This document shows, piece by piece, positions 17,193-61,347 of a stretch of 64,000 nucleotides of DNA. Numbering within the stretch: position 1 is the stretch's first letter; each line of letters opens with the position of its first letter. The position numbers and the translations under genes were made by a program. The notes beneath the pieces are model-generated. The model was not told where the DNA came from. It was given only the letters and a program-made list of their open reading frames with translations, and did no database searches. Source of the stretch: Jatrophihabitans sp. GAS493 (lineage in GTDB: Bacteria; Actinomycetota; Actinomycetes; Mycobacteriales; Jatrophihabitantaceae); the NCBI RefSeq assembly GCF_900230215.1, contig NZ_LT907982.1, forward strand, positions 1,798,001 through 1,862,000, read 5' to 3'.

Positions 17193-17855
17193 GTGGCCAC
17201 GATGACGTATCCATCCCATTGGGAAGCCGATGTGCTCACCGCGGACGGGGCCCGGGTGCACCTGCGCCCGATCACCGCCGCCGATGCCGATCGGCTGACC
17301 CGTTTTCACGCGACGCTATCGCTGCGGACCCGTTACCGGCGGTACTTCAACGCGATGCCGTATCTCTCCGAGCAGGCTCTCTTCAGATTCACCAACGTCG
17401 ACTACCACTATCGGGTCGCGCTCATCGTGCTGGTCGATGATGAGATCGTCGCCGTCGGTCGCTATGAGGGCGCGGCGGGGTCGGCCGAGGCGGAGGTGGC
17501 GTTCGTTGTCGCCGACGCCTATCAGGGCCACGGCCTCGGATCGGTCCTGCTGGACCATCTCGCGGCGGCGGCGCTGGAGTGCGGAATCACCCGTTTCACC
17601 GCCACCGTTCTGGCCGATAATCACGGAATGCTCCGGGTCTTCACCGACGCCGGATATCAGGTCAGCAGCCGTTTCCGGGGCGGGGAGGTCGATCTCTGGT
17701 TCGAGATCGCCGACACTCAGCGGATCGTGGCGGTCCGGGCCGATAGAGCGGCCCGATCGGCTGGGCGCAGTCAGCTCACGCGCAGGCCGGACATGCCCCC
17801 GTCGACGGCGAGAATTGAGCCGGTGGTCGAGCCGGACAACGGGCTGGCCAGGTAG
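17193..17855 (+). CDS. GNAT N-acetyltransferase, likely partner of AcuC
   Basis: 220-residue acetyltransferase. It opens with VHLRPITAADADRL, then FHATLSLRTRYRRYF and FTNVDYHYRVALI, as in the GNAT domain of Pat-type protein lysine acetyltransferases, and carries the acetyl-CoA loop VADAYQGHGLGSVLL followed by NHGMLRVFTDAGY. The start could be GTG 17193 or ATG 17202. Its position directly behind acuC suggests reversible protein acetylation. The last 85 bp overlap the 3' end of a convergent SDR gene, and the C-terminal tail after ~residue 190 is Arg/Pro-rich, without recognisable fold. Confidence 0.88.
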   Translation: MATMTYPSHWEADVLTADGARVHLRPITAADADRLTRFHATLSLRTRYRRYFNAMPYLSEQALFRFTNVDYHYRVALIVLVDDEIVAVGRYEGAAGSAEAEVAFVVADAYQGHGLGSVLLDHLAAAALECGITRFTATVLADNHGMLRVFTDAGYQVSSRFRGGEVDLWFEIADTQRIVAVRADRAARSAGRSQLTRRPDMPPSTARIEPVVEPDNGLAR

Positions 17856-18526
17856 GCGATGGCGAAGGCGACCTCGTCCGCGGTGACCAGACGCCCCATC
17901 GGCTGGCGGGCGCGTAGCGCCGCCGCGGCGGCGGCCGCATCCTGCGCCTGCTCCAGGAGTCGTCCGACCCACGGGGTGTCGGCTGTGCCGGGGGCGACCG
18001 CGTTGACCCGGACTCCCTGCTTCACATGGTCGGCCGCCATGGCCAGCGTCAGCGACTGCACCGCTCCCTTGCTGGCCGAGTAGAGGGCCCGCTGCCCAAC
18101 CCCGACGTTGGCCACCACCGAAGCGGTGTTGACGATCGACGCGTGGGCTGACTGCACGAGAAGTGGCAGTGCCGTCCGGGTGATCCGGGCGATGCCGACG
18201 ACGTTCACGTTCAGTACCCGCAGCCACTCGTCGTCGTCGTTCGCGGCGACGTCCCCGGTGGCCCCGATACCGGCGTTGTTGATGAGGACGTCGAGCCGGC
18301 CGAGGTGTTCGGCGGCCAGGGCGACCGCCGCGGCCGACGATCCGGCGTTGGCCACGTCGCAGGGCACCTGGAAGATCGCTGCGGTCGAGTCGAATGCCGC
18401 CGTCGGGTAGGAGCGATCGAGCGAGGCCACTCGTGCGCCACGGTCACGCAGCAGTGCCGCGGTGGCCGCGCCGATGCCGCTGGCGCCGCCGGTGACGATT
18501 GCGGTCAGGCCGTCGAAGTCGTTCAT
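17771..18526 (-). CDS. SDR family oxidoreductase (sugar island)
   Basis: 251-residue classical SDR. NAD(P) motif TGGASGIG near residue 12, NNAG at ~88, catalytic Ser in NTASVVANVG, YSASKGAVQ with the Tyr/Lys pair, VNAVAPGTADTPW, and the terminal VDGGMSGL. The ATG at 18526 follows GGAG; a longer reading from 18559 is unlikely. It is the last gene of a minus-strand operon with a zinc dehydrogenase, FAH hydrolase, SMP-30 lactonase and IclR regulator. The likely role is oxidation of a sugar (first step) or of a 2-keto-3-deoxy sugar acid (later step). Confidence 0.9.
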   Translation of the reverse strand: MNDFDGLTAIVTGGASGIGAATAALLRDRGARVASLDRSYPTAAFDSTAAIFQVPCDVANAGSSAAAVALAAEHLGRLDVLINNAGIGATGDVAANDDDEWLRVLNVNVVGIARITRTALPLLVQSAHASIVNTASVVANVGVGQRALYSASKGAVQSLTLAMAADHVKQGVRVNAVAPGTADTPWVGRLLEQAQDAAAAAAALRARQPMGRLVTADEVAFAIAYLASPLSGSTTGSILAVDGGMSGLRVS

Positions 18527-18594: not shown

Positions 18595-19608
18595 TTACAA
18601 GCGGGGATCGATGTGAAGCTTGGGGCCATCGCCGGCCGAGTCCGGACGCCATCCGGAGAGGACGTCGCCGACCCGCTCCAGCCCGACGGTGGCGGCGATC
18701 AGCGGTCGTGGATCCACATCCGCGTTCGCGTAACGCTCGATGGTCTGGGCCAGACCCTGCGAAGCGGCCAGGATGCCGACCGCGGTGACATCCTTCAACG
18801 CCAGCGTCCGCGTGTCGATGAGACTCGGTGTGCCGGAGAGCCCGACGTAGACGATCCGCTTTCCGGGCTCCACCAGCTCTAGGGCGAGCGCCGGCAGCGC
18901 GGTTGCGTTGGAGGCGTCGACCACAGCGTCCCAAGGGGCTTCCGGTAGTTCGTGCTGGCCCCATACACCGGTAAAACCGAGCGATCGGCTGAACAGCTGG
19001 GCCTGCTCTGACCGACCCATGAGATGGACCTCCGCGCCGTCGGCCCGGGCGAAGGCGGCGACCAGCAGGCCGATCGTCCCGTTGCCGAGCACGAGGAGTC
19101 GATCACCTCGGCCGAGTCCGGCGCCCCACACCGAACGCAGCGCGTTGCCGCCCGGTTCGACCAATGCCCCAGCCGCGTCGTCGACGCTCTCCGGCAGGGC
19201 CAGCAGGGCACGGGCCGGCACCGCAAGCTGCTCGGCCAGCGCACCGGGGAAGCCGCCCCGGATACCGATCTCGAATCGCTCGGCACAGACGTTGTGCCGC
19301 CCAACTTGGCAGCGTGCGCAGTGCCCGCAGCCGATCATCGTGTCGCCGGTGACGCGTCGCCCGAGCCAGGACTCCTCGACGCCATCACCGACCGCGCTGA
19401 CCACGCCACACCACTCATGCCCCAGACGCATCGGATACTGCGCGTGCCCCTGCTGCAGGTAGGCCATCTCGCCGGTCCAGAATTCGACGTCGGTGCCACA
19501 GACACCGACCCGGTGCACATCGACGACCACTTCACCGGCCCCGGCGACCGGGTCGTCGACCTGCGCGACGCCGCCCTCCCGCGGGCCGGTGACGACGAAC
19601 GCTCTCAT
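18595..19608 (-). CDS. Zinc-dependent medium-chain alcohol/sugar dehydrogenase
   Basis: 337-residue MDR-superfamily dehydrogenase. Catalytic zinc ligands appear in GVCGTDVEF (Cys) and RLGHEWCGVV (His, Glu); the structural zinc site is CGHCARCQVGRHNVC, four cysteines; the nucleotide-binding segment is LLVLGNGTIGLLVAA, a variant of GxGxxG. Related enzymes include threonine/sorbitol dehydrogenases and L-sugar dehydrogenases. The ATG at 19608 is the last of four ATGAGAG repeats that join this gene to the FAH gene by successive ATGA overlaps. Probably oxidises an intermediate of the sugar-acid pathway. Confidence 0.92.
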   Translation of the reverse strand: MRAFVVTGPREGGVAQVDDPVAGAGEVVVDVHRVGVCGTDVEFWTGEMAYLQQGHAQYPMRLGHEWCGVVSAVGDGVEESWLGRRVTGDTMIGCGHCARCQVGRHNVCAERFEIGIRGGFPGALAEQLAVPARALLALPESVDDAAGALVEPGGNALRSVWGAGLGRGDRLLVLGNGTIGLLVAAFARADGAEVHLMGRSEQAQLFSRSLGFTGVWGQHELPEAPWDAVVDASNATALPALALELVEPGKRIVYVGLSGTPSLIDTRTLALKDVTAVGILAASQGLAQTIERYANADVDPRPLIAATVGLERVGDVLSGWRPDSAGDGPKLHIDPRL

Positions 19609-19650
19609 CCGCCGTCTCTCATCCGACGTCTCTCATCTGAATGCTCTCAT
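19606..19650 (-). repeat. Three 14-bp tandem units creating a chain of four ATGA stop/start overlaps
   Basis: Reading the minus strand, ATGs lie at 19650, 19636, 19622 and 19608, each opening ATGAGAG. The FAH gene stops with the TGA of the first ATGA. The three intervening ATGs open 5-codon ORFs (MRAFR, MRDVG, MRDGG), each ending in a TGA that overlaps the next ATG; the fourth ATG is the dehydrogenase start (MRAFVV). Unit 1 resembles the true start region, so the array probably arose by tandem duplication of it. Confidence 0.85.
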
Positions 19651-20548: not shown

Positions 20549-21466
20549 TTACTGGCCGGACCACTCGTGCACCGGCAATCCGGTGACACCGGGGCGTGCG
20601 CTGAAGATCCGACCGGAGTCGGGGTGGCGGTTCAGCTTGTCCTCGCTGAGTTGGTCGGACGCGGTGGTGATGAGCAGGGTGTCGAGCTCCGCCCCGACGA
20701 AGGCGACGCTTGAGGTGTTGGGCGCGTCGACCGCGATGGTGGCGATGTGATCGCCGGCGGCGGTGAACCCGCGGACCTCTCCGGCCCCCCAGATAGCGAT
20801 CCACAGGTTCCCTTCGGTGTCCAGGCACAGGCCGTCGGGGAGACCGTCATCGAACTGTAGAAAGGGCGCCCGGGGGCCGAACTCGCCGGTGGCCGCGTCG
20901 AATCCTCGCTTCCAGACCACCCCGGTGAGACTGTCGGCGCTGTAGAGCCACCCGTCGTCGGGCGTGAAGGCGAGGCCGTTGGCCAGCGCGAGATCGTCGT
21001 CGAGGTGGGTCAGGGTGCCGTCGGCTTCGACCACGACCAGCGACTCGTCCCGGGGACGGTCATCGCTGCCGACCGTGCCGACCGTGCCGACCGTGCCGAC
21101 CGTGCCGACCGTGCCGACCAGGAAGCGCCCGGTCGGGTCGCAGCCGCCGTCGTTGAGACGACTCTGCTTGCCCATCGGGATGATCTCGGTCGAGGCGGTG
21201 ACGGCCCCGTCGGTCGAGATCGTGTGCAGCCGGCGGTGGCCGGCGACCAGTAGCCGGCCGTCGGCGGCTGAGACCACCGCCCCGACCGTCTCGTCGACGG
21301 CGATCCGGTGCTCTTCGGTGAGAACGCCGCGGTCGAAGCGGCCGATGTGCACGGTGCCGGCGTTGATGTCGACCCAGAGCACGCGCTGACGCGCCGCGTC
21401 CCAGTACGGCCCCTCAGCCAGGCCGAAGACTTCGCAAGAGACGGGGGTCGAGGCGATATCGATCAT
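20549..21466 (-). CDS. SMP-30/gluconolactonase family lactonase
   Basis: 305-residue six-bladed beta-propeller lactonase. Family signatures are GLAEGPYWDAARQRVLWVDI (metal-binding Glu), RLNDGGCDPTGRF (Asn/Asp metal ligands), LALANGLAFTPDDGWLY and DGLPDGLCLDTEGNLW. It would hydrolyse a sugar-acid lactone (for example a fucono-, rhamnono- or gluconolactone) to the open acid. A GTV-GTV run of five perfect 9-bp repeats sits directly after GRFLVG, where relatives have only GT and a short loop. Its ATG shares one base with the IclR stop (TGATG), so both are co-translated. The FAH gene follows 44 bp downstream. Confidence 0.9.
   Translation of the reverse strand: MIDIASTPVSCEVFGLAEGPYWDAARQRVLWVDINAGTVHIGRFDRGVLTEEHRIAVDETVGAVVSAADGRLLVAGHRRLHTISTDGAVTASTEIIPMGKQSRLNDGGCDPTGRFLVGTVGTVGTVGTVGTVGSDDRPRDESLVVVEADGTLTHLDDDLALANGLAFTPDDGWLYSADSLTGVVWKRGFDAATGEFGPRAPFLQFDDGLPDGLCLDTEGNLWIAIWGAGEVRGFTAAGDHIATIAVDAPNTSSVAFVGAELDTLLITTASDQLSEDKLNRHPDSGRIFSARPGVTGLPVHEWSGQ
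21071..21115. repeat. 9-bp tandem repeat x5 inside the lactonase gene
   Basis: Five identical copies of GACCGTGCC (plus strand), with partial copies on both sides, encode repeated Gly-Thr-Val. The unit is a multiple of three, so slippage changes protein length without breaking the frame. Confidence 0.95.
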
Positions 21467-22317: not shown

Positions 22318-24042
22318 GTGACTGACGAACGCGAGCAGCGAAGCTCGCAGTGGTACGCCGGTACCGATCGCAACGCCTACATCCACCGGGCGTGGATGCG
22401 CCGCGGCCTCCCCGCGCACGCCTTCGACGGCCGGCCGCACATCGCGATCGCCAACACCGCGTCCGACCTGACGCCCTGCAACTCCCACTTCGACGAGGTG
22501 GCCGAGAGCGTGAAGCAGGGCGTCTACGAGGCGGGTGGGATCCCGCTGAACCTCCCGGTCGTCTCGTTGGGGGAGACGCTGGTCCGTCCGACGGCGATGC
22601 TGTGGCGGAACATGGCGGCGATGGCGACGGAGGAGATGCTGCGGGCGAATCCGATCGACGGTGTGGTGCTCCTCGGTGGCTGTGACAAGACGATCCCGGC
22701 GCTGCTGATGGCCGCAGCGTCGGTCGATCTGCCCGCGGTGGTCATCCCGGGCGGGCCGATGCTCACGGGCACCTTCCGCGGGCAACCACTGGGCTGCGGG
22801 ACCGACGTCTGGCGGCTGTCGGAGGAGGTGCGCGCCGGAACCCTCTCGCCGGAGCAGTTCAGCAAGTCCGAGTCCTCGATGATCCGCAGCCGCGGCCACT
22901 GCAACACGATGGGCACCGCCTCCACGATGGGGCTGCTGGCCGAGGCTCTGGGGATGGTGCTGCCGGGGCTGGCCGGGACGCCGGCGGCCGACAGCCGGCT
23001 GCTGGAAGGCGCACACGAGACGGGGCGGCTGGCCGTCGAGATGGTCGCCGCCGGGCGCACCCCGTCCAGTGTGCTGTCGCGCGGTTCGTTTCTGAACGCC
23101 ATCGTGGCACTGGCCGCCATCGGTGGTTCGACCAACGCGGTGGTGCACCTGCTGGCGATCGCGGGGCGGCTGGGGATCGAGCTGAGTCAGGACGACTTCG
23201 ACCGCACCGGCGCCGACGTTCCGCTGCTGGTCGATCTGCAGCCGGCCGGACGCTTTCTGATGGAGGACTTCTTCCGCGCCGGTGGGCTGCACGCGGTACT
23301 GCGAGAGGTACAGGATCTCCTCGATCCCGCTGCCCTGAGCGTCACTGGCCAGCCCCTGGTCGACTACCTCGGGGCGGCCCAGATCTGGGACGCCGAGGTG
23401 ATCCGCCCCCGCGACCGCCCGTTGCAGCCCCGGGCCGGAATTGCCGTGCTCTACGGCAATCTGGCCCCGGACGGGGCGGTCATCAAGCCGGCCGCGGCCA
23501 CGCCCGAGCTGTTGCAGCACCGAGGACGAGCAATGGTCTTCGACTCGATCGAGGACCTGCACGCTCGCATCGACGACCCCGAGCTGGACGTGGACGCCGA
23601 CTCGGTGTTGATCCTGCGCGGCTGCGGCCCCAGGGGCTACCCGGGAATGCCCGAGGTGGCGAACCTGCCGCTGCCGACCAGACTGCTGCAGCAGGGAGTG
23701 CGCGACATGGTCCGCATCTGCGACGGACGGATGAGCGGCACCGCCTACGGCACAGTGGTGTTGCACGTGGCTCCGGAGGCCGCGGCCGGCGGTCCGCTCG
23801 CGCTGGTGCGGACGGGCGACATCGTCACCCTCGACGTTGCGGGGCGCCGCCTGGACATCGAGGTCGGAGCCGAAGAACTCGCCGCCCGCCAGGTCGATGC
23901 GCAGACCGCAGCCGCCTTCGCCCAGCCAAAGCGGGGCTGGGAGCGTCTCTATGTCCAGACCGTCCAGCAGGTCAACACCGGGGCCGACCTCGACTTCCTG
24001 ATCGGCTCCAGTGGCCCCGACGTGTCCCGCGAATCCCACTAG
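22318..24042 (+). CDS. IlvD/Edd-family sugar acid dehydratase
   Basis: 574-residue [Fe-S] dehydratase. Cysteines expected to bind the cluster are in SDLTPCNSHFDEV, LLGGCDKTIPA and RSRGHCNTMGTASTM; the GHCNTMG form, with CNSH, is typical of aldonic-acid dehydratases (arabinonate/xylonate type, [2Fe-2S]) and differs from the CGSCSGM of true IlvD at 33669. It would convert a sugar acid to the 2-keto-3-deoxy acid. Starts with GTG 51 bp from the divergent iclR. The next genes, UPF0303 and mannonate dehydratase-like, follow in the same direction after 20 bp and 3 bp, forming an operon. Confidence 0.9.
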   Translation: MTDEREQRSSQWYAGTDRNAYIHRAWMRRGLPAHAFDGRPHIAIANTASDLTPCNSHFDEVAESVKQGVYEAGGIPLNLPVVSLGETLVRPTAMLWRNMAAMATEEMLRANPIDGVVLLGGCDKTIPALLMAAASVDLPAVVIPGGPMLTGTFRGQPLGCGTDVWRLSEEVRAGTLSPEQFSKSESSMIRSRGHCNTMGTASTMGLLAEALGMVLPGLAGTPAADSRLLEGAHETGRLAVEMVAAGRTPSSVLSRGSFLNAIVALAAIGGSTNAVVHLLAIAGRLGIELSQDDFDRTGADVPLLVDLQPAGRFLMEDFFRAGGLHAVLREVQDLLDPAALSVTGQPLVDYLGAAQIWDAEVIRPRDRPLQPRAGIAVLYGNLAPDGAVIKPAAATPELLQHRGRAMVFDSIEDLHARIDDPELDVDADSVLILRGCGPRGYPGMPEVANLPLPTRLLQQGVRDMVRICDGRMSGTAYGTVVLHVAPEAAAGGPLALVRTGDIVTLDVAGRRLDIEVGAEELAARQVDAQTAAAFAQPKRGWERLYVQTVQQVNTGADLDFLIGSSGPDVSRESH

Positions 24043-26535: not shown

Positions 26536-28593
26536 ATGAGAAGGCACAATCTCTTTGGAAAGACCGATCAACAACCACGGCCGCGCGGCCGTCGATTTAT
26601 ATGTCTACTGGCCGCGGTAACCGTCGCGGCGACTCTGCAGCTAGTCAGTTCCGGCACGGCCTCAGCGACTCCGCCCACCAGCGGGGTCGCTTCGTTGTCT
26701 CTGATCAACGGTTGGACGAACGCGCCGTTCGCGACGCATGAAGCGACGGCCACCATCAATCGGGGCATTGTCACCCTGCAGGGCGCCGTCGCCACCTCTG
26801 GCACCAACGCGTCGCCGTTCGTGTTGCCGACCGGGTACCGCCCGGCGACCGACGCCTACGTGGCAGTGGATCTCTGTGGCGCCACCAACGGGCGGCTGCA
26901 CATCACACCCGCGGGCACAGTCACCGTGCAGGCGGAGACCTCGTTCTCCAACGCGCAGTGCTTCACCTCCCTCGACGGGGCATCATTCGCGACCTCGGCC
27001 ACCGGGTTCACCCCGCTGACCCTGCTCAACGGCTGGACGAATGCTCCGTACAGCACGTCGAACGCGGCCATTGAGAACATCGCCGGCGTGCTGCACTTCA
27101 AGGGAGCGATCGCCACCTCGGGCACCAACGTGTCGCCGTTCACGCTGCCGGTCGGGTTCCGCCCGTTCACCAATACCTATGTTCCGGTGGACATGTGCAA
27201 CGCCGCGAAGGGCCGGCTGTACATCACGACCGCCGGTGCCGTCACCGTGCAGGCTCAGAACGCCTTCTCCGACGCCCAGTGCTTCACGTCGCTGGACGGG
27301 GTTTCTTTCGTCCCGTCCGGAACGGGTACCACCGCGCTGACCCTGACCAACGGCTGGGTCGGTGGTCCGTTCAGCACCGGCATCCCGCGGGTCGCCATCG
27401 TCAGCGGGGTCGTGCACCTGAAGGGGTCGATGGGTAGCGGCACCAGTGCGGCGGCCTTCACGCTGCCGGTTGGGTTCCGTCCGGCGACGACGGTCTACGC
27501 GGCGGCGGACATGTGCAACGCCACCAACGGCCGGCTGATCATCCAGCCAACGGGTGCGGTGAGCGTGCAGGCGGAGACCTCGTTCTCCAACGCGCAGTGC
27601 TTCACCTCGCTCGACGGAGTCACCTTCGCCACCTCGGGGGCGAGTTTCACCCCATTGAGCCTGGTGAATGGTTGGACCAACGCGCCGTACGCAACGTCCA
27701 ACGCGGCGGTTCAGGTGCTCTCCGGGGTCGTCCACTTCAAGGGAGCGATCGCGACTTCGGGCACGAACGCGCAGCCGTTCACGCTGCCGGTCGGGTTCCG
27801 TCCGTTCTCGAATCTCTATGTTCCGGTGGATCTCTGCAACTCCACGAAGGGGCGGCTCTACATCACCACGACCGGGGTCGTGACCGTGCAGGCATCGACC
27901 GCCTTCTCCAACGCGCAGTGCTTCACCTCCTTGGATGGGGCCTCGTTCGTGATCTCCGGTACCGGGACGACGACGCTGGCGCTGACCAACGGCTGGGTCG
28001 GGGCGCCGTTCAGCACCGGCATTCCGCGGGCGGTCAACCTCAATGGGGTTGTGCACCTGAAGGGCGCGATGGGTAGTGGCACCAGCACTTCGGCCTTCAC
28101 GCTGCCGGTCGGGTTCCGGCCGGCGACGACGGTCTACGCGCCGGTGGACATGTGTGGGGCCACCAATGGCCGGCTGATTATCCAGCCAACGGGTGCGGTG
28201 AGCGTGCAGGCGGAGACGTCGTTCTCCAACGCGCAGTGCTTCACCTCGCTGGACGGGGCCACGTTCGCGACCTCGACCGTCGGCTTCACCCCGGTGACCC
28301 TGGTCAACGGGTGGACCAACGCGCCGTTCAGCACCTCGAACGCGGCAATCGAGAATCTCTCGGGGATCGTGTACTTCAAGGGTGCGATCGCCAGTGGCAC
28401 GACCGCGACGGCGTTCACGCTGCCGGTCGGGTCGCGGCCGAGCACGAACGTCTACGTTTCGGTGGATACCTGCAACGCCACCAACGGACGGCTGCTGATC
28501 ACGACCGCGGGCACCGTGTCGGTGCAGACCGAGGCAGCCTTCTCCAACGCCCAGTGCTTCACCTCGCTGGACGGGGCGTCGTTCGCCCTCTAG
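26536..28593 (+). CDS. Exported protein with six tandem ~106-residue repeats
   Basis: 685 residues, not a family with a known function. After a signal peptide (RGRRFICLLAAVTVAATLQL, cleavage likely after SGTASA) come six repeats starting at 26695, 27016, 27337, 27655, 27976 and 28294. Each has NGW near its start, a GxVxxxG(A/S) segment, FTLPVGFRP, VDLC/VDMC, (K/N)GRLxI, VTVQA or VSVQA and NAQCFTSLDG at the end, so two cysteines per unit, possibly a disulfide-bonded beta-sandwich. Repeats alternate between two types: NGWTNAP (2, 4, 6) and NGWVG(G/A)P (3, 5). The ATG at 26536 directly precedes the basic signal-peptide start; an upstream ATG at 26485 is possible. Followed by a hairpin terminator. 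Confidence 0.85.
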   Translation: MRRHNLFGKTDQQPRPRGRRFICLLAAVTVAATLQLVSSGTASATPPTSGVASLSLINGWTNAPFATHEATATINRGIVTLQGAVATSGTNASPFVLPTGYRPATDAYVAVDLCGATNGRLHITPAGTVTVQAETSFSNAQCFTSLDGASFATSATGFTPLTLLNGWTNAPYSTSNAAIENIAGVLHFKGAIATSGTNVSPFTLPVGFRPFTNTYVPVDMCNAAKGRLYITTAGAVTVQAQNAFSDAQCFTSLDGVSFVPSGTGTTALTLTNGWVGGPFSTGIPRVAIVSGVVHLKGSMGSGTSAAAFTLPVGFRPATTVYAAADMCNATNGRLIIQPTGAVSVQAETSFSNAQCFTSLDGVTFATSGASFTPLSLVNGWTNAPYATSNAAVQVLSGVVHFKGAIATSGTNAQPFTLPVGFRPFSNLYVPVDLCNSTKGRLYITTTGVVTVQASTAFSNAQCFTSLDGASFVISGTGTTTLALTNGWVGAPFSTGIPRAVNLNGVVHLKGAMGSGTSTSAFTLPVGFRPATTVYAPVDMCGATNGRLIIQPTGAVSVQAETSFSNAQCFTSLDGATFATSTVGFTPVTLVNGWTNAPFSTSNAAIENLSGIVYFKGAIASGTTATAFTLPVGSRPSTNVYVSVDTCNATNGRLLITTAGTVSVQTEAAFSNAQCFTSLDGASFAL
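26695..28593 (+). repeat. 639-bp dimer/320-bp monomer coding repeats
   Basis: Repeat starts are 321, 321, 318, 321 and 318 bp apart. The length alternation follows the protein subtypes: units 2-3 and 4-5 form two copies of a 639-bp two-repeat block, which implies a whole-block duplication after the original monomer duplication. Confidence 0.85.
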
Positions 28594-47986: not shown

Positions 47987-49927
47987 TTGGCAGACGACAG
48001 CGATGCTGCCCGTGAAGCCGATCCTGCCCGCGAAGCCGATCCTGCCCGCGAAGCCGATCCTGCCCGCGAAGCCGATCCTGCCCGCGAAGCCGATCCTGCC
48101 CGCGAAGCCGATCCTGCCCGTGAAGCCGATCCTGCCCGTGAAGGTGCCTCGGCTTCCGAAGGCGACTGGGTCCCCAAAGCCGATGCGGCCGCCGAAGCTG
48201 ATCCGGTGGCCAGCGACAATTCGGCCCCCAATGCCGATCCGGTAGCCGGGCCGGCGCGACGCTCTTTCTCGCTGCATGAGTTCCTGACCCGGCAACGACA
48301 TCTTCCATCGCACTGGCCGACCCGCAGTGGACGCTTCCTCGTGATGTGGGTACTGCGCCTGTCCGTGGCATTGGGAGTGGCCTCGCTTTTCGCGCGCGCA
48401 CTTCCTTTCCGCGCCACCGTCGACGGCGTGCCGTTCCGGGTCGAGGCGACGCTCTTTACCCGACGCGGACTCAGCGCGGACACCACGCTCGGAAGCTGGC
48501 AGTTCCCGCGCTTTACCGGTCTTCCAATCGGAGTGCATGTCTCGCCGGTCGACGTTGACCTGCTGCGGCTAACCAGGGCGGCGAACCAGGACACGCCAGC
48601 CTATGTAGCCAAACTCAGCAAGGACTTCAGCGCGCAACTGCCGCAGATCGCCGCCTGGCTCATCGGCGAGATCGTTCTCGGCATGATCATCGGCCTCGTG
48701 TTCGTGGCGCTGCTGGAGATGGCCGTTCGTTATCTGCGAGGAATCGCGCCCCGTGCAGGTGAGCTCGTGCGTCGGCTTCGCCAGCTCGGAGGAGGGCTTT
48801 CGGTTTTGCTGCTCGTCGGTGCGTTTGGGGCGCTCACCTACGACCCTGACTGGGCCAAGGAGTCGAAGCTGACTGGCACGTTGGCGTCCTTCCAGCTCTT
48901 TCCCGATCAGTTGAAGCAGTACTACCTCCAGCAATCCAAGGCCTATGACGCGTTGGGCTCGGTGATCGGGATTCAGGCCGCGCTGCAGCAGACCATTGAG
49001 CAACGAGATGTGCCGACGACGTCTTTCAATGTCATGTTCATATCCGACATGCACCTGGCGGCGGTCTACCCACTGGTGCTTCAGTACGCGCAGAACTTCG
49101 ACGTAAAGCTCATCGTCAACACCGGAGACGAGAGCGAGTTCGGCTCGTCGGCGGAGATGACGCCGACCTACGTGGCCTCGATCGCCAATCTGACCAAGAC
49201 GATCCCGATGATCTGGGTCGCCGGAAACCACGATTCCGCTGACGTCGCATCGGTGATGGCCGGCATCCGCGGTGTCACGGTGCTCGGTGGAAAGACCAAG
49301 CCGTCGGCGGGTGAGATTGCCGTGGCGCCGGGATACGTAAATGCCTTTGGCCTGACTATCGCCGGCATTCCCGATCCGCGCGTCTACGGAGCGGCGGGTG
49401 TCTATGGCTCTAACGATGACTCGGGCACCGACAAGCTGGAGCGCCGAACGATCGACGATGCCGTAAAGGGAGCGAGCAAATCGACCCTCTTCGACATGTT
49501 CATGACTCATGAACCGAATGCCGCCGCGCAGCTGACTCATGACCTTCCTGGGCAGATTAGGCAGACGAACTCGGGGCACCTGCACGCGCAGAACGAAACC
49601 TCGCAAATTCAGAGCGGCTCGAACATCAACCTGGTCGAGGGTTCAACCGGAGCCGGAGGCCTGGACAACATCGAGCGGAAGTCCACTCAGCGTCCACCGG
49701 TCGAATTCAGCATCGAGTCGGTCGCCGATAACTGCGAGTTCACGAAGTTGCTGCGGTTTCAGCTGAACAACGCGGCCGTCGCGGAGGCTGCGAATGCCGC
49801 CACTTTTGGTCAGGATGTGACCGTCTCGACGCTGTACTTCAAGACGCAGAAAGTTGATGTGGATCGGGTCTGTACTACGACTTCGGGGATCGGAAAGGCG
49901 GTGGCCGGGCTGCCGATAGAGCAGTGA
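47987..49927 (+). CDS. Membrane metallophosphoesterase with N-terminal EADPAR repeats
   Basis: 646 residues from a TTG at 47987, chosen for GGAGG 5 nt before it. Residues ~10-51 are seven perfect EADPAR copies, then a low-complexity acidic/Ala stretch to ~90. TM helices follow: FLVMWVLRLSVALGVASLFA, LIGEIVLGMIIGLVFVALLE and LSVLLLVGAFGALTY. The C-terminal calcineurin-like phosphoesterase (from ~345) has all metal motifs: FISDMHL, NTGDESE, WVAGNHDSAD, FMTHEPN and SGHLHAQ. So an acidic/basic repeat arm precedes a membrane-anchored phosphoesterase, probably facing outside. Substrate unknown. Confidence 0.88.
   Translation: MADDSDAAREADPAREADPAREADPAREADPAREADPAREADPAREADPAREGASASEGDWVPKADAAAEADPVASDNSAPNADPVAGPARRSFSLHEFLTRQRHLPSHWPTRSGRFLVMWVLRLSVALGVASLFARALPFRATVDGVPFRVEATLFTRRGLSADTTLGSWQFPRFTGLPIGVHVSPVDVDLLRLTRAANQDTPAYVAKLSKDFSAQLPQIAAWLIGEIVLGMIIGLVFVALLEMAVRYLRGIAPRAGELVRRLRQLGGGLSVLLLVGAFGALTYDPDWAKESKLTGTLASFQLFPDQLKQYYLQQSKAYDALGSVIGIQAALQQTIEQRDVPTTSFNVMFISDMHLAAVYPLVLQYAQNFDVKLIVNTGDESEFGSSAEMTPTYVASIANLTKTIPMIWVAGNHDSADVASVMAGIRGVTVLGGKTKPSAGEIAVAPGYVNAFGLTIAGIPDPRVYGAAGVYGSNDDSGTDKLERRTIDDAVKGASKSTLFDMFMTHEPNAAAQLTHDLPGQIRQTNSGHLHAQNETSQIQSGSNINLVEGSTGAGGLDNIERKSTQRPPVEFSIESVADNCEFTKLLRFQLNNAAVAEAANAATFGQDVTVSTLYFKTQKVDVDRVCTTTSGIGKAVAGLPIEQ
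48014..48139. repeat. 18-bp tandem repeat x7 in the phosphoesterase gene
   Basis: Seven consecutive 18-bp units encode EADPAR; they differ only at one third-codon base (CGC or CGT for Arg). A degenerate copy (DAAR) precedes. In-frame length change by slippage is possible. Confidence 0.95.
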
Positions 49928-60117: not shown

Positions 60118-61347
60118 TCAGCCAGCCGCCGGCGACGTGGCCGGTGCAGCGACGGCCGACTGCTCCGCCGGGGGCCCGTCCGATGAGACCGGCGACGGGT
60201 TAGGCGAGACAGCCGGCGTGGGCGTCGCTGAGGCTGATGGCGAGGGTGATGGCGAGGCTGATGGCGAGGCTGATGGCGAGGCTGATGGCGAGGCTGATGG
60301 CGAGGGCGAGAGCGAGGGCGAGAGCGAGGGCCCTGGAGACGGCGACGGCGACGCGACCGGAAGGGGTGTCGGTCGCGGGGACGCTGATGGCGTGCTGATC
60401 GCCGGCGGGGGACCGGGGTTGGCCGGGGGCAGCCGCGGCGGTGTGGTCGGTACCGGAACCGGCGACGCGATCACCGCCGGCTTGCCGGTGGCGTAGGCGG
60501 CCTCCAGCCCGAGCACTGTAGCCAGGTAGGTGGCCGAATGGTTGTAGGCCAGCACCCCGCGGGCCATGCCGGCTGGCGAGGCGACCTCTCCGGCGGCGGC
60601 GCAGAGGTAGTGTGCGGCCGAGAGGGCGGCATCGAAGATGTTCGACGGGTCGGCCACACCGTCGCCGGTCGCGTCCACCCCCCACGTCTTCCACGTCGAC
60701 GGGATGAACTGCATCGGCCCCACCGCGCGGTCATAGACCGGGTCTCCATCGAGGCGGCCGTGGTCAGTGTCGCGGATGAGCGCTGTCGAGACCCCATCCA
60801 GCGCCGGCCCGAGGATCCGCGGCGCGGTCAGCCCGTCCGGGTAGATGGATGCGCCCCCGAAGCGGCCGTGGTTGGACTCCACCCGTCCGATCGCGGCCAG
60901 CAGCGGCCAGCTGAGCCCGCATGCCGGATCGCTCTTGGCCGAGCTCGCGGCGGCTCGCCGGTAGGCGTTCAGCGCGATGACCGGGATCCCGCCCTGGGCC
61001 AATGCCAAGACAGCCAAGGGGGGCGGCGCGGTCACCGCCAGCGGCGCCGGCGGTGCGGGAGTCGGGGTGAGCCGAGGCGCCGGTGTGGAGCTGGGGCGGG
61101 GGAGCGGGGCCCGCGGAACGGATTGATCCTGCCGGCCGACCTCCGGGCTCGCCGGCGACGTGGCGGAGAGGGTCGGGGTGACGGCGCCAACTTGGTGCTC
61201 ATTCACCGCCGCTCCGGTCAGCGAAGCCAGCAGCAACGCCAGCAGTGCGGCCGTCGCCGGCCGCTTCACGCGCGCCGCCATCGACGAGGCCGAGCGCTGC
61301 GCCGGTCCGTCCTCACTTTGCGTGCGACTGCTGTCGCGCCGAGACAA
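60118..61347 (-). CDS. Lytic transglycosylase-like protein with Ser/Pro repeat tail
   Basis: 409 residues from TTG at 61347 (GGAGGG at 7 nt), or 387 from ATG 61281, which begins directly at the signal peptide VKRPATAALLALLLASLTGA. A Pro/Ala/Thr linker leads to the MltB/SLT-type domain (residues ~140-280): AYRRAAASSAKSDPACGLSW, LLAAIGRVESNHGRFGG with the catalytic Glu, GPMQFIPSTWKTWGVD and NIFDAALSAAHYLCAAAG, ALGVLAYNHS-like as GVLAYNHSATYLA. It cleaves peptidoglycan glycan strands without added water. The last ~90 residues are PSPS/SASP repeats, probably a wall-spanning or flexible tail. Confidence 0.88.
   Translation of the reverse strand: MSRRDSSRTQSEDGPAQRSASSMAARVKRPATAALLALLLASLTGAAVNEHQVGAVTPTLSATSPASPEVGRQDQSVPRAPLPRPSSTPAPRLTPTPAPPAPLAVTAPPPLAVLALAQGGIPVIALNAYRRAAASSAKSDPACGLSWPLLAAIGRVESNHGRFGGASIYPDGLTAPRILGPALDGVSTALIRDTDHGRLDGDPVYDRAVGPMQFIPSTWKTWGVDATGDGVADPSNIFDAALSAAHYLCAAAGEVASPAGMARGVLAYNHSATYLATVLGLEAAYATGKPAVIASPVPVPTTPPRLPPANPGPPPAISTPSASPRPTPLPVASPSPSPGPSLSPSLSPSPSASPSASPSASPSASPSPSPSASATPTPAVSPNPSPVSSDGPPAEQSAVAAPATSPAAG
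60230..60325. repeat. 12-bp tandem repeats encoding the Ser/Pro tail
   Basis: Six copies of GAGGCTGATGGC-type units (one with a single change) run from 60230 to 60301, followed by two copies of GAGGGCGAGAGC. On the coding (minus) strand they give Ala-Ser-Pro-Ser and Ser-Pro repeats. Confidence 0.9.

Follow-up and report, generated by a model that had tools for sequence, protein, structure and literature searches.

A ladder of four ATGA stop/start overlaps between an FAH-family hydrolase gene and a dehydrogenase gene: a candidate translational relay

On the minus strand of the window (the whole stretch of 64,000 nt that was analysed), four copies of ATGAGAG at a spacing of exactly 14 bp lie between the genes of an FAH-family hydrolase and a zinc-type dehydrogenase. 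This ladder reads ATGAGAGCATTCAG ATGAGAGACGTCGG ATGAGAGACGGCGG ATGAGAGCGTTC on that strand, with its ATGs at 19650, 19636, 19622 and 19608 (ATG1 to ATG4; Table 1). The reading favoured here, which we judge slightly better than an even bet, is that the ladder serves as a translational relay keeping the FAH–dehydrogenase pair coupled, akin to MIRU-type coupling.

Table 1. Features of the junction and its neighbourhood, in window coordinates
Feature	Position	Strand	Remarks
Short-chain dehydrogenase gene	17771..18526	−	downstream context
Zinc-type alcohol-dehydrogenase-family enzyme gene, 337 aa	18595..19608	−	start is ATG4
Predicted 11-bp RNA hairpin, loop AGAG	19591..19616	−	ATG4 forms the last three bases of the 5′ arm
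Mini-ORF 3, MRDGG	19605..19622	−	TGA overlaps ATG4
SD-like GAGAG before ATG4	19616-19620	−	duplex −7.6 kcal/mol, best of the four starts
Mini-ORF 2, MRDVG	19619..19636	−	TGA overlaps ATG3
SD-like GAGAG before ATG3	19630-19634	−	duplex −5.0 kcal/mol
Mini-ORF 1, MRAFR	19633..19650	−	TGA overlaps ATG2; dehydrogenase frame, but closed
SD-like GAGAG of unit 1, before ATG2	19644..19648	−	duplex −4.2 kcal/mol
FAH-family hydrolase gene, 285 aa	19647..20504	−	TGA (19649-19647) overlapping ATG1
SMP-30/gluconolactonase-family gene	20549..21466	−	context
IlvD/EDD-type dehydratase gene	22318-24042	opposite to FAH/dehydrogenase genes

Anatomy of the ladder and its locus

The 3′ end of the FAH gene reads ...GCC CCC CGA TGA, with the stop inside the first ATGA of the ladder, and ATG1, ATG2 and ATG3 each open a mini-ORF of 5 codons (18 nt including the stop). 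Every step of the ladder is a −4 nt overlap, each ladder stop is followed by a further start +10 nt downstream, and the bare gap from the FAH stop to ATG4 is +38 nt. The preliminary description had reported four ATGAGAG copies 14 bp apart and three 5-codon ORFs each stopping on the next ATG, which was confirmed on the minus strand; of the extent that it gave, 19606–19650, the right end holds and the left end does not, as the four ATGA span 19605–19650. Since 14-bp units (2 mod 3) that keep ATGA produce the overlaps automatically, the overlaps were treated as one fact, not four. By the distance usual for coupling (a stop overlapping a start, or about 10 nt from it), the FAH/dehydrogenase pair itself falls outside at +38 nt, and only the FAH stop with ATG1, and each mini-ORF step, fall inside. 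ATG1–3 were rejected as starts of the dehydrogenase (ATG1 shares its frame but is cut off by a stop, and neither ATG2 nor ATG3 shares it), as was a conserved leader peptide, given that the three mini-ORF peptides differ and that the 20 other junctions compared lack the ladder.

SD-like pairing was scored against the 16S tail (as DNA, CACCTCCTTTCT). ATG1 is without an SD (+0.2 kcal/mol); before ATG2–4, GAGAG stands at a workable distance, and these matches are weak, random 20-mers having a median of −3.1 and a best tenth of −6.9; relatives with a single overlap gave −1.3 (L051), −1.8 (L046) and −4.7 kcal/mol (L041). The predicted hairpin pairs the spacer of unit 3 with the first codons of the dehydrogenase gene (−16.2 kcal/mol), leaving ATG4 with a predicted probability of being unpaired of 0.01. 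Its z-score of −3.8 was obtained in a 34-nt segment chosen after the hairpin had been seen, and the fold was ordinary in three other, wider segments (z −1.6, −1.4 and −0.8). Equally good folds were found for 2.9% of 18,276 34-mers in the window and for 2 of 68 orthologue starts, and, among 16 listed junction loci, for L070, L071 and L076. In the single-overlap relatives, the start is predicted to be as buried as ATG4 in L041 (0.01) and open in L046 (0.87).

The genes for the SMP-30-type lactonase, the FAH hydrolase, the zinc-type dehydrogenase and the short-chain dehydrogenase run in the same direction. The SMP-30 gene also starts at an overlap, a TGATG in which the stop of the preceding ORF overlaps its ATG. 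The FAH hydrolase scored 324 bits against the NCBIfam model for 2,4-didehydro-3-deoxy-L-rhamnonate hydrolase, under the model cut-off of 500, and the gene set (lactonase, FAH, dehydrogenases, IlvD/EDD dehydratase) looks, by inference, like a non-phosphorylative sugar-acid pathway. Tandem repeats of other kinds were also seen in the window: the lactonase gene holds a perfect 9-bp repeat of 5.9 copies (21067-21119), translated as GTVGTVGTVG, and further arrays lie at 26799-28586 (318-bp unit, 5.6 copies), 48001-48143 (18 bp, 7.9 copies) and 60230-60305 (12 bp, 6.3 copies).

The junction in relatives and the origin of the units

Dehydrogenase orthologues were compared in a set of 110 loci (L002-L009, L035-L114 and L115-L136, chosen without the remote matches L010-L031), from which 3 duplicates were removed. 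An ATG, GTG or TTG is aligned at the first residue in all 107 distinct loci, window included, which bears out the earlier proposal that the fourth ATG is the true start of the dehydrogenase. A close orthologue was not found in the 23 genomes searched within the genus (1) and family (22), the best E being 1e-36.

FAH lies directly upstream of the dehydrogenase in 21 of the 107 loci, window included, at distances of −4 in five (three ATGA, two GTGA), −1 in two and +7 to +11 in ten; the longer distances are +29 (L071), +38 (window) and +41 (L070 and L076). The ladder is absent from all 20 other junctions. At 14 of these, an ATG or GTG overlaps the FAH TGA by 4 nt and reads in an open frame into the dehydrogenase: 5 do so directly, 6 via 4–5 extra codons (L044, L066, L069, L115, L116, L119) and 3 via 11–15 extra codons (L070, L071, L076); two more have a 1-nt overlap with the FAH stop (L045, L100), and four have neither type (L055, L062, L088, L099). 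Among the 21 junctions, the window alone has a start overlapping the FAH stop that shares the dehydrogenase frame with this frame closed; its 38 nt are spanned by the ladder. The gaps of 29–41 nt in L070, L071 and L076 might seem to show that a ladder is not needed, but do not, as all three have an overlapping GTG in an open frame. Among relatives at positive distances, 9 of 13 are at 2 mod 3 (a binomial sum gives 0.009 for an expected third, though the relatives are not independent). Since overlap-type starts are so widely kept at this junction, the comparison suggests that coupling itself is kept in the relatives, and a relay in the window seems to achieve what an overlap or a short in-frame extension achieves in them. 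Separately, the dehydrogenase may start 4–15 codons before the conserved Met in L044, L066, L069, L070, L071, L076, L115, L116 and L119.

Chance was rejected as the source of the ladder by shuffles of the window, a reversed genome control and Markov sequences. The window has two ATGA triples at 13–15 bp spacing, each of them inside the ladder, against a mean of 0.01 over 100 shuffles; in the whole 4.88-Mb genome, the 14-bp ATGA triple has 3 matches (reversed control, 0), two of them being the ladder and the third, the only other one for this triple, having a different sequence; and the window has one chain of at least four ATGA-linked mini-ORFs, whereas neither of two 10-Mb Markov sequences has any.

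Differences between the units fall in 6 of the 7 spacer columns and in 0 of the 7 columns of ATGAGAG (column permutation gives 0.0023 for all units and 0.010 for units 1–3 alone; these values are optimistic, as adjacent changes could stem from one event). There is 1 difference between units 2 and 3, there are 3 between units 1 and 4, and the remaining pairs have 4 or 5, so that the ladder was probably built by more than one duplication round. The single-ATGA junctions L041, L046 and L051 share the sequence ATGAGAGC with units 1 and 4, and the most natural reading of the ladder, a tandem array of the kind left by slippage, is that three copies were added to a single-ATGA start such as this one. 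The earlier proposal of tandem duplication from one ATGA junction thus gains support, 3 of the 20 other junctions being a single ATGA with that start; its companion, that the kept overlaps point to recent origin or selection, does not stand in that form, because units that differ at 6 of 14 columns are not brand new.

Similar arrays elsewhere

The phylum was scanned for four ATGA at fixed spacing in an even genome sample, with the reversed word as control and Pfam as the judge of gene starts. Such tetrads were found at 14 bp in 9 of 396 genomes (10 distinct arrays; control, 4 genomes), at 13 bp in 1 of 396 (control, 3), at 11 bp in 11 of 368 (12 arrays; control, 2 genomes) and at 16 bp in 5 of 368 (control, 2), two of the last five being 8-bp arrays. 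A Pfam-supported gene start lies at the end of 8 of the 10 14-bp arrays and of 0 of 1 at 13 bp. Apart from the window, these are the starts of RuvX after alanyl-tRNA synthetase (L140), an ABC permease after an ABC permease (L142, 1501-1588, seven perfect units ATGAGGAGTCAGCG), a HAD hydrolase (L143), a PNP-type phosphorylase (L144, where the SD-start units ATGAGGAGGGAACT are perfect and the ATG of the gene lies a unit beyond), UvrA (L145), an epimerase (L137) and a PALP enzyme (L148, a 7-bp repeat); the remaining two arrays are L138, with masked bases, and L141, without a domain. In three of the ten (window, L140 and L142), a long upstream ORF also has its stop overlapped by the array. As 14 is 2 × 7, repeats of 7 bp (L138, L148) enter only the 14-bp class; with the window and L148 left out, the contrast is 6 versus 0 (about 0.03, two-sided, by a coin-toss sum; suggestive only). 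The phase counts are small and the gene-start reading was made after the search, so a preference of bacterial gene-start arrays for 14 over 13 bp is suggestive.

For the 11-bp arrays, a Pfam domain was found in 0 of 5 downstream ORFs scanned (that of L385 opens 409 codons), and the other 7 open at most 57 codons; none of the 16-bp arrays opens more than 69. Seven of the twelve 11-bp arrays sit in six genomes of one family (f32; L386-L391 and L393, in G522, G533, G596, G648, G677 and G695), with non-identical, ATGAATCTGGG-like units and no Pfam-supported gene start, and form an unexplained repeat family of f32.

Within the same genome, a search for 17-bp triples gave a second relay-like chain (L568:1449-2324; G000:C1:4026494-4027369) of seven cistrons, in which six mini-ORFs of 6–9 codons (in order MDSTVAARQ, MTTQSRLGA, MSSLGV, MSRLDA, MSRLDA and MSMSRLARS, each with its stop) lead to a TTG-start TauE/SafE exporter gene (Pfam TauE, 1.6e-37), all junctions being 4-nt NTGA overlaps. 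In a third chain (L034:1501-1532; G000:C1:2543578-2543609), two mini-ORFs (MNVLL, MRALE) in non-identical units lead to a histidine kinase start. ATGA triples at 13 and 11 bp occur at one place each in the genome, neither at a gene start, and an 8-bp repeat ATGACCCG (2 mod 3) with thirteen ATGA (L590:1261-1360; G000:C1:4081261-4081360) does not end at a gene start. A genome-wide trend was not found: a sample of 39 stretches (780 kb, 436 genes by crude GC3 calling; L612, which holds the second relay, left out) contained 71 two-start chains and a single gene-to-mini-ORF-to-gene case (L608); no chain had three to twelve, and the one with 13 was an 8-bp repeat.

In viral contigs, four ATGA at 14 bp were found in at least 119 stretches (at least 119 distinct arrays) and at 13 bp in 109 stretches (94 distinct arrays). 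The last ATG opens at least 100 codons in 7 of the 119 14-bp arrays listed and in 6 of 94 at 13 bp, and an upstream ORF of at least 60 codons ending in the first ATGA together with a downstream ORF of at least 60 was seen in 4 arrays among those listed at 14 bp and in 1 at 13 bp; one 13-bp array precedes a terminase gene. No phase bias was thus seen between the 14-bp arrays among the matches listed and the 13-bp arrays. Three ATGAGG were found in 33 stretches at 14 bp, 14 at 13, 113 at 15 (set aside, as in-frame coding is expected), 7 at 16 and 10 at 17. Gene starts were seen, unfiltered, in 9 of 31 (14 bp), 2 of 13 (13 bp) and 0 of 7 (16 bp), and, after dropping 20 arrays with 7-bp sub-repeats (all at 14 bp) and ORFs under half the length of the antisense ORF, in 2 of 11, 1 of 13 and 0 of 7, with 1 of 6 at 17 bp. 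Full relays in the filtered set numbered 1 of 11 (14 bp), 1 of 6 (17 bp), 0 of 13 (13 bp) and 0 of 7 (16 bp), and the flanking ORFs of both (L424, L559) had no PHROGs match. Three ATGAGAG gave two viral matches, 7-bp repeats at an ORF of 123 codons.

A wider reading, which we regard as rather unlikely, takes tandem start-stop cassettes as a recurrent bacterial gene-start architecture, with phage cases too, which ribosomes would walk and by which slippage would tune protein ratios. The cassette would consist of ATGA, an SD-like sequence and a spacer, in a unit of 2 mod 3, of which 14 bp gives a workable SD-to-start distance; the phase bias would be the signature of ribosome walking, and this genome would hold at least three cases (dehydrogenase, histidine kinase and the seven-cistron TauE exporter).

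The proposed relay, its rivals and its place among known systems

In the proposed relay, a single ATGA junction between FAH and dehydrogenase would have expanded to four by slippage-type tandem duplication, and, the unit being 14 bp (2 mod 3) and beginning with ATGA, every extra start would open a 5-codon ORF ending on the next start. Ribosomes that have finished FAH would re-start at ATG1, stop on ATG2, and so onward; each stop would also have within reach, 10 nt further on, a start preceded by a weak SD-like GAGAG, and the last mini-ORF would deliver the ribosome onto the hairpin that may hide the dehydrogenase AUG. The ladder would thereby keep the dehydrogenase coupled to FAH across 38 nt, and its step count may have an attenuating effect. 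From this arrangement we infer initiation by ribosomes at ATG1–3 and its effect on output. That ribosomes finishing FAH could be handed on in this way, as first suggested in the preliminary description, fits the anatomy (a 4-nt overlap at each step, weak GAGAG before starts 2–4, the hairpin at start 4, and 38 nt otherwise), and the second relay-like chain in this genome and the 14-bp arrays at bacterial gene starts speak for it as well. Against it, a strict four-step relay multiplies losses, and the weak SD matches, the ordinary fold in wider segments, the four relatives with neither type of overlap, the scarcity of further chains in the 780-kb sample and the even phase of the listed viral arrays also count.

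Alternatively, and in our view somewhat unlikely, the array could be a benign passenger without a regulatory role, its extra starts being used, under a phase filter by which slippage makes units of all lengths, out-of-frame run-ins are harmful and lost, and 2-mod-3 units are tolerated. Such a filter would explain the bacterial phase bias without positive selection, as well as the relay does, although it likewise needs ribosomes that use the extra starts. Ladders are rare in this genome and relatives manage without one, both of which suit a passenger; such a 'minimal impact' is also argued for in the case of MIRU insertions in PMC12548453. What speaks for the relay over a passenger is that ATGAGAG is invariant while the spacers diverged, and that overlap-type starts are widely kept at the junction, suggesting that coupling itself is kept.

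It is quite improbable that the ladder is an inert slippage product, with ATG1–3 unused and the dehydrogenase starting independently at 19608 from its own SD-like site. ATG4 does have the best SD energy of the four, and tandem repeats are common in the window (46 listed), but the start at ATG4 is probably buried by the predicted fold, 16 of 20 relatives keep an overlap option, and divergence avoids ATGAGAG. Direct repeats at a fixed spacing and a predicted hairpin might also be read as a DNA- or RNA-level element that binds a regulator, the mini-ORFs being incidental; this is highly improbable, as the ladder lies within a run of same-strand genes, its invariant positions are the start, stop and SD-like ones, and gene-start arrays elsewhere have unrelated unit sequences. 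An assembly or sequencing artefact is a negligible prospect, since the array is 56 bp long, its units can be told apart and the genome is a single contig.

MIRUs are far longer repeats (tens of bp), mobile and dispersed, whereas the unit in the window is 14 bp and appears to have been expanded in place. Slippage-variable repeats near ribosome-binding sites are tandem units whose number could change expression; in the window, the unit itself is a start-stop cassette. The likeness to the MIRUs of mycobacteria, as far as the available portion of PMC12548453 goes, lies in repeats at a start codon and in a small ORF whose end overlaps the gene by 4 nt, as that of the last mini-ORF overlaps the dehydrogenase gene. 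The ribosome-delivering short upstream ORFs in the same portion are alike in that the peptide is irrelevant and the ORF brings ribosomes to the next start, but the window has three in series, from a tandem repeat and after a full gene, not in a leader. ATGA-overlap termination-reinitiation (PMC6728339, PMC10666635) involves the same 4-nt overlap as each ladder step, and the relatives' pair uses it directly; the window pair differs in being 38 nt apart and linked via three serial 5-codon ORFs, a case untreated in the available parts of those papers. In E. coli, according to the available part of PMC10666635, +38 nt cut coupling by 80–100% in three gene pairs, +14 nt brought a 40–80% loss of re-initiation, and the last 15 nt of the upstream gene sufficed. 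Ribosomes offered two starts in phage fr took the one nearest the stop (as recounted in the portion of PMC12548453 available), and many short ORFs in M. tuberculosis give initiation signals, 48 being only a start and a stop codon (PMC9094748, available part). Neither a tandem ATGA relay nor serial minimal start-stop units were found in the titles and abstract openings of the literature searched. The parts are thus already known (4-nt overlap coupling, ribosome-delivering short ORFs, and MIRUs with a coupled ORF), and it is the serial tandem start-stop units that appear to be new.

The reach and frequency of ribosome re-start after an ORF are debated (30S or 70S scanning, very short reach), and natural ladders of four to seven stop/start steps would offer a direct test of that reach. 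If each step passes on a fixed fraction of ribosomes, output should fall as a power of the unit number, and a 13-bp unit should break the relay; L142 would be well suited to a search for differences in unit number between strains. If the relay reading is true, such ladders would be a compact, slippage-tunable setting of protein ratios inside operons.
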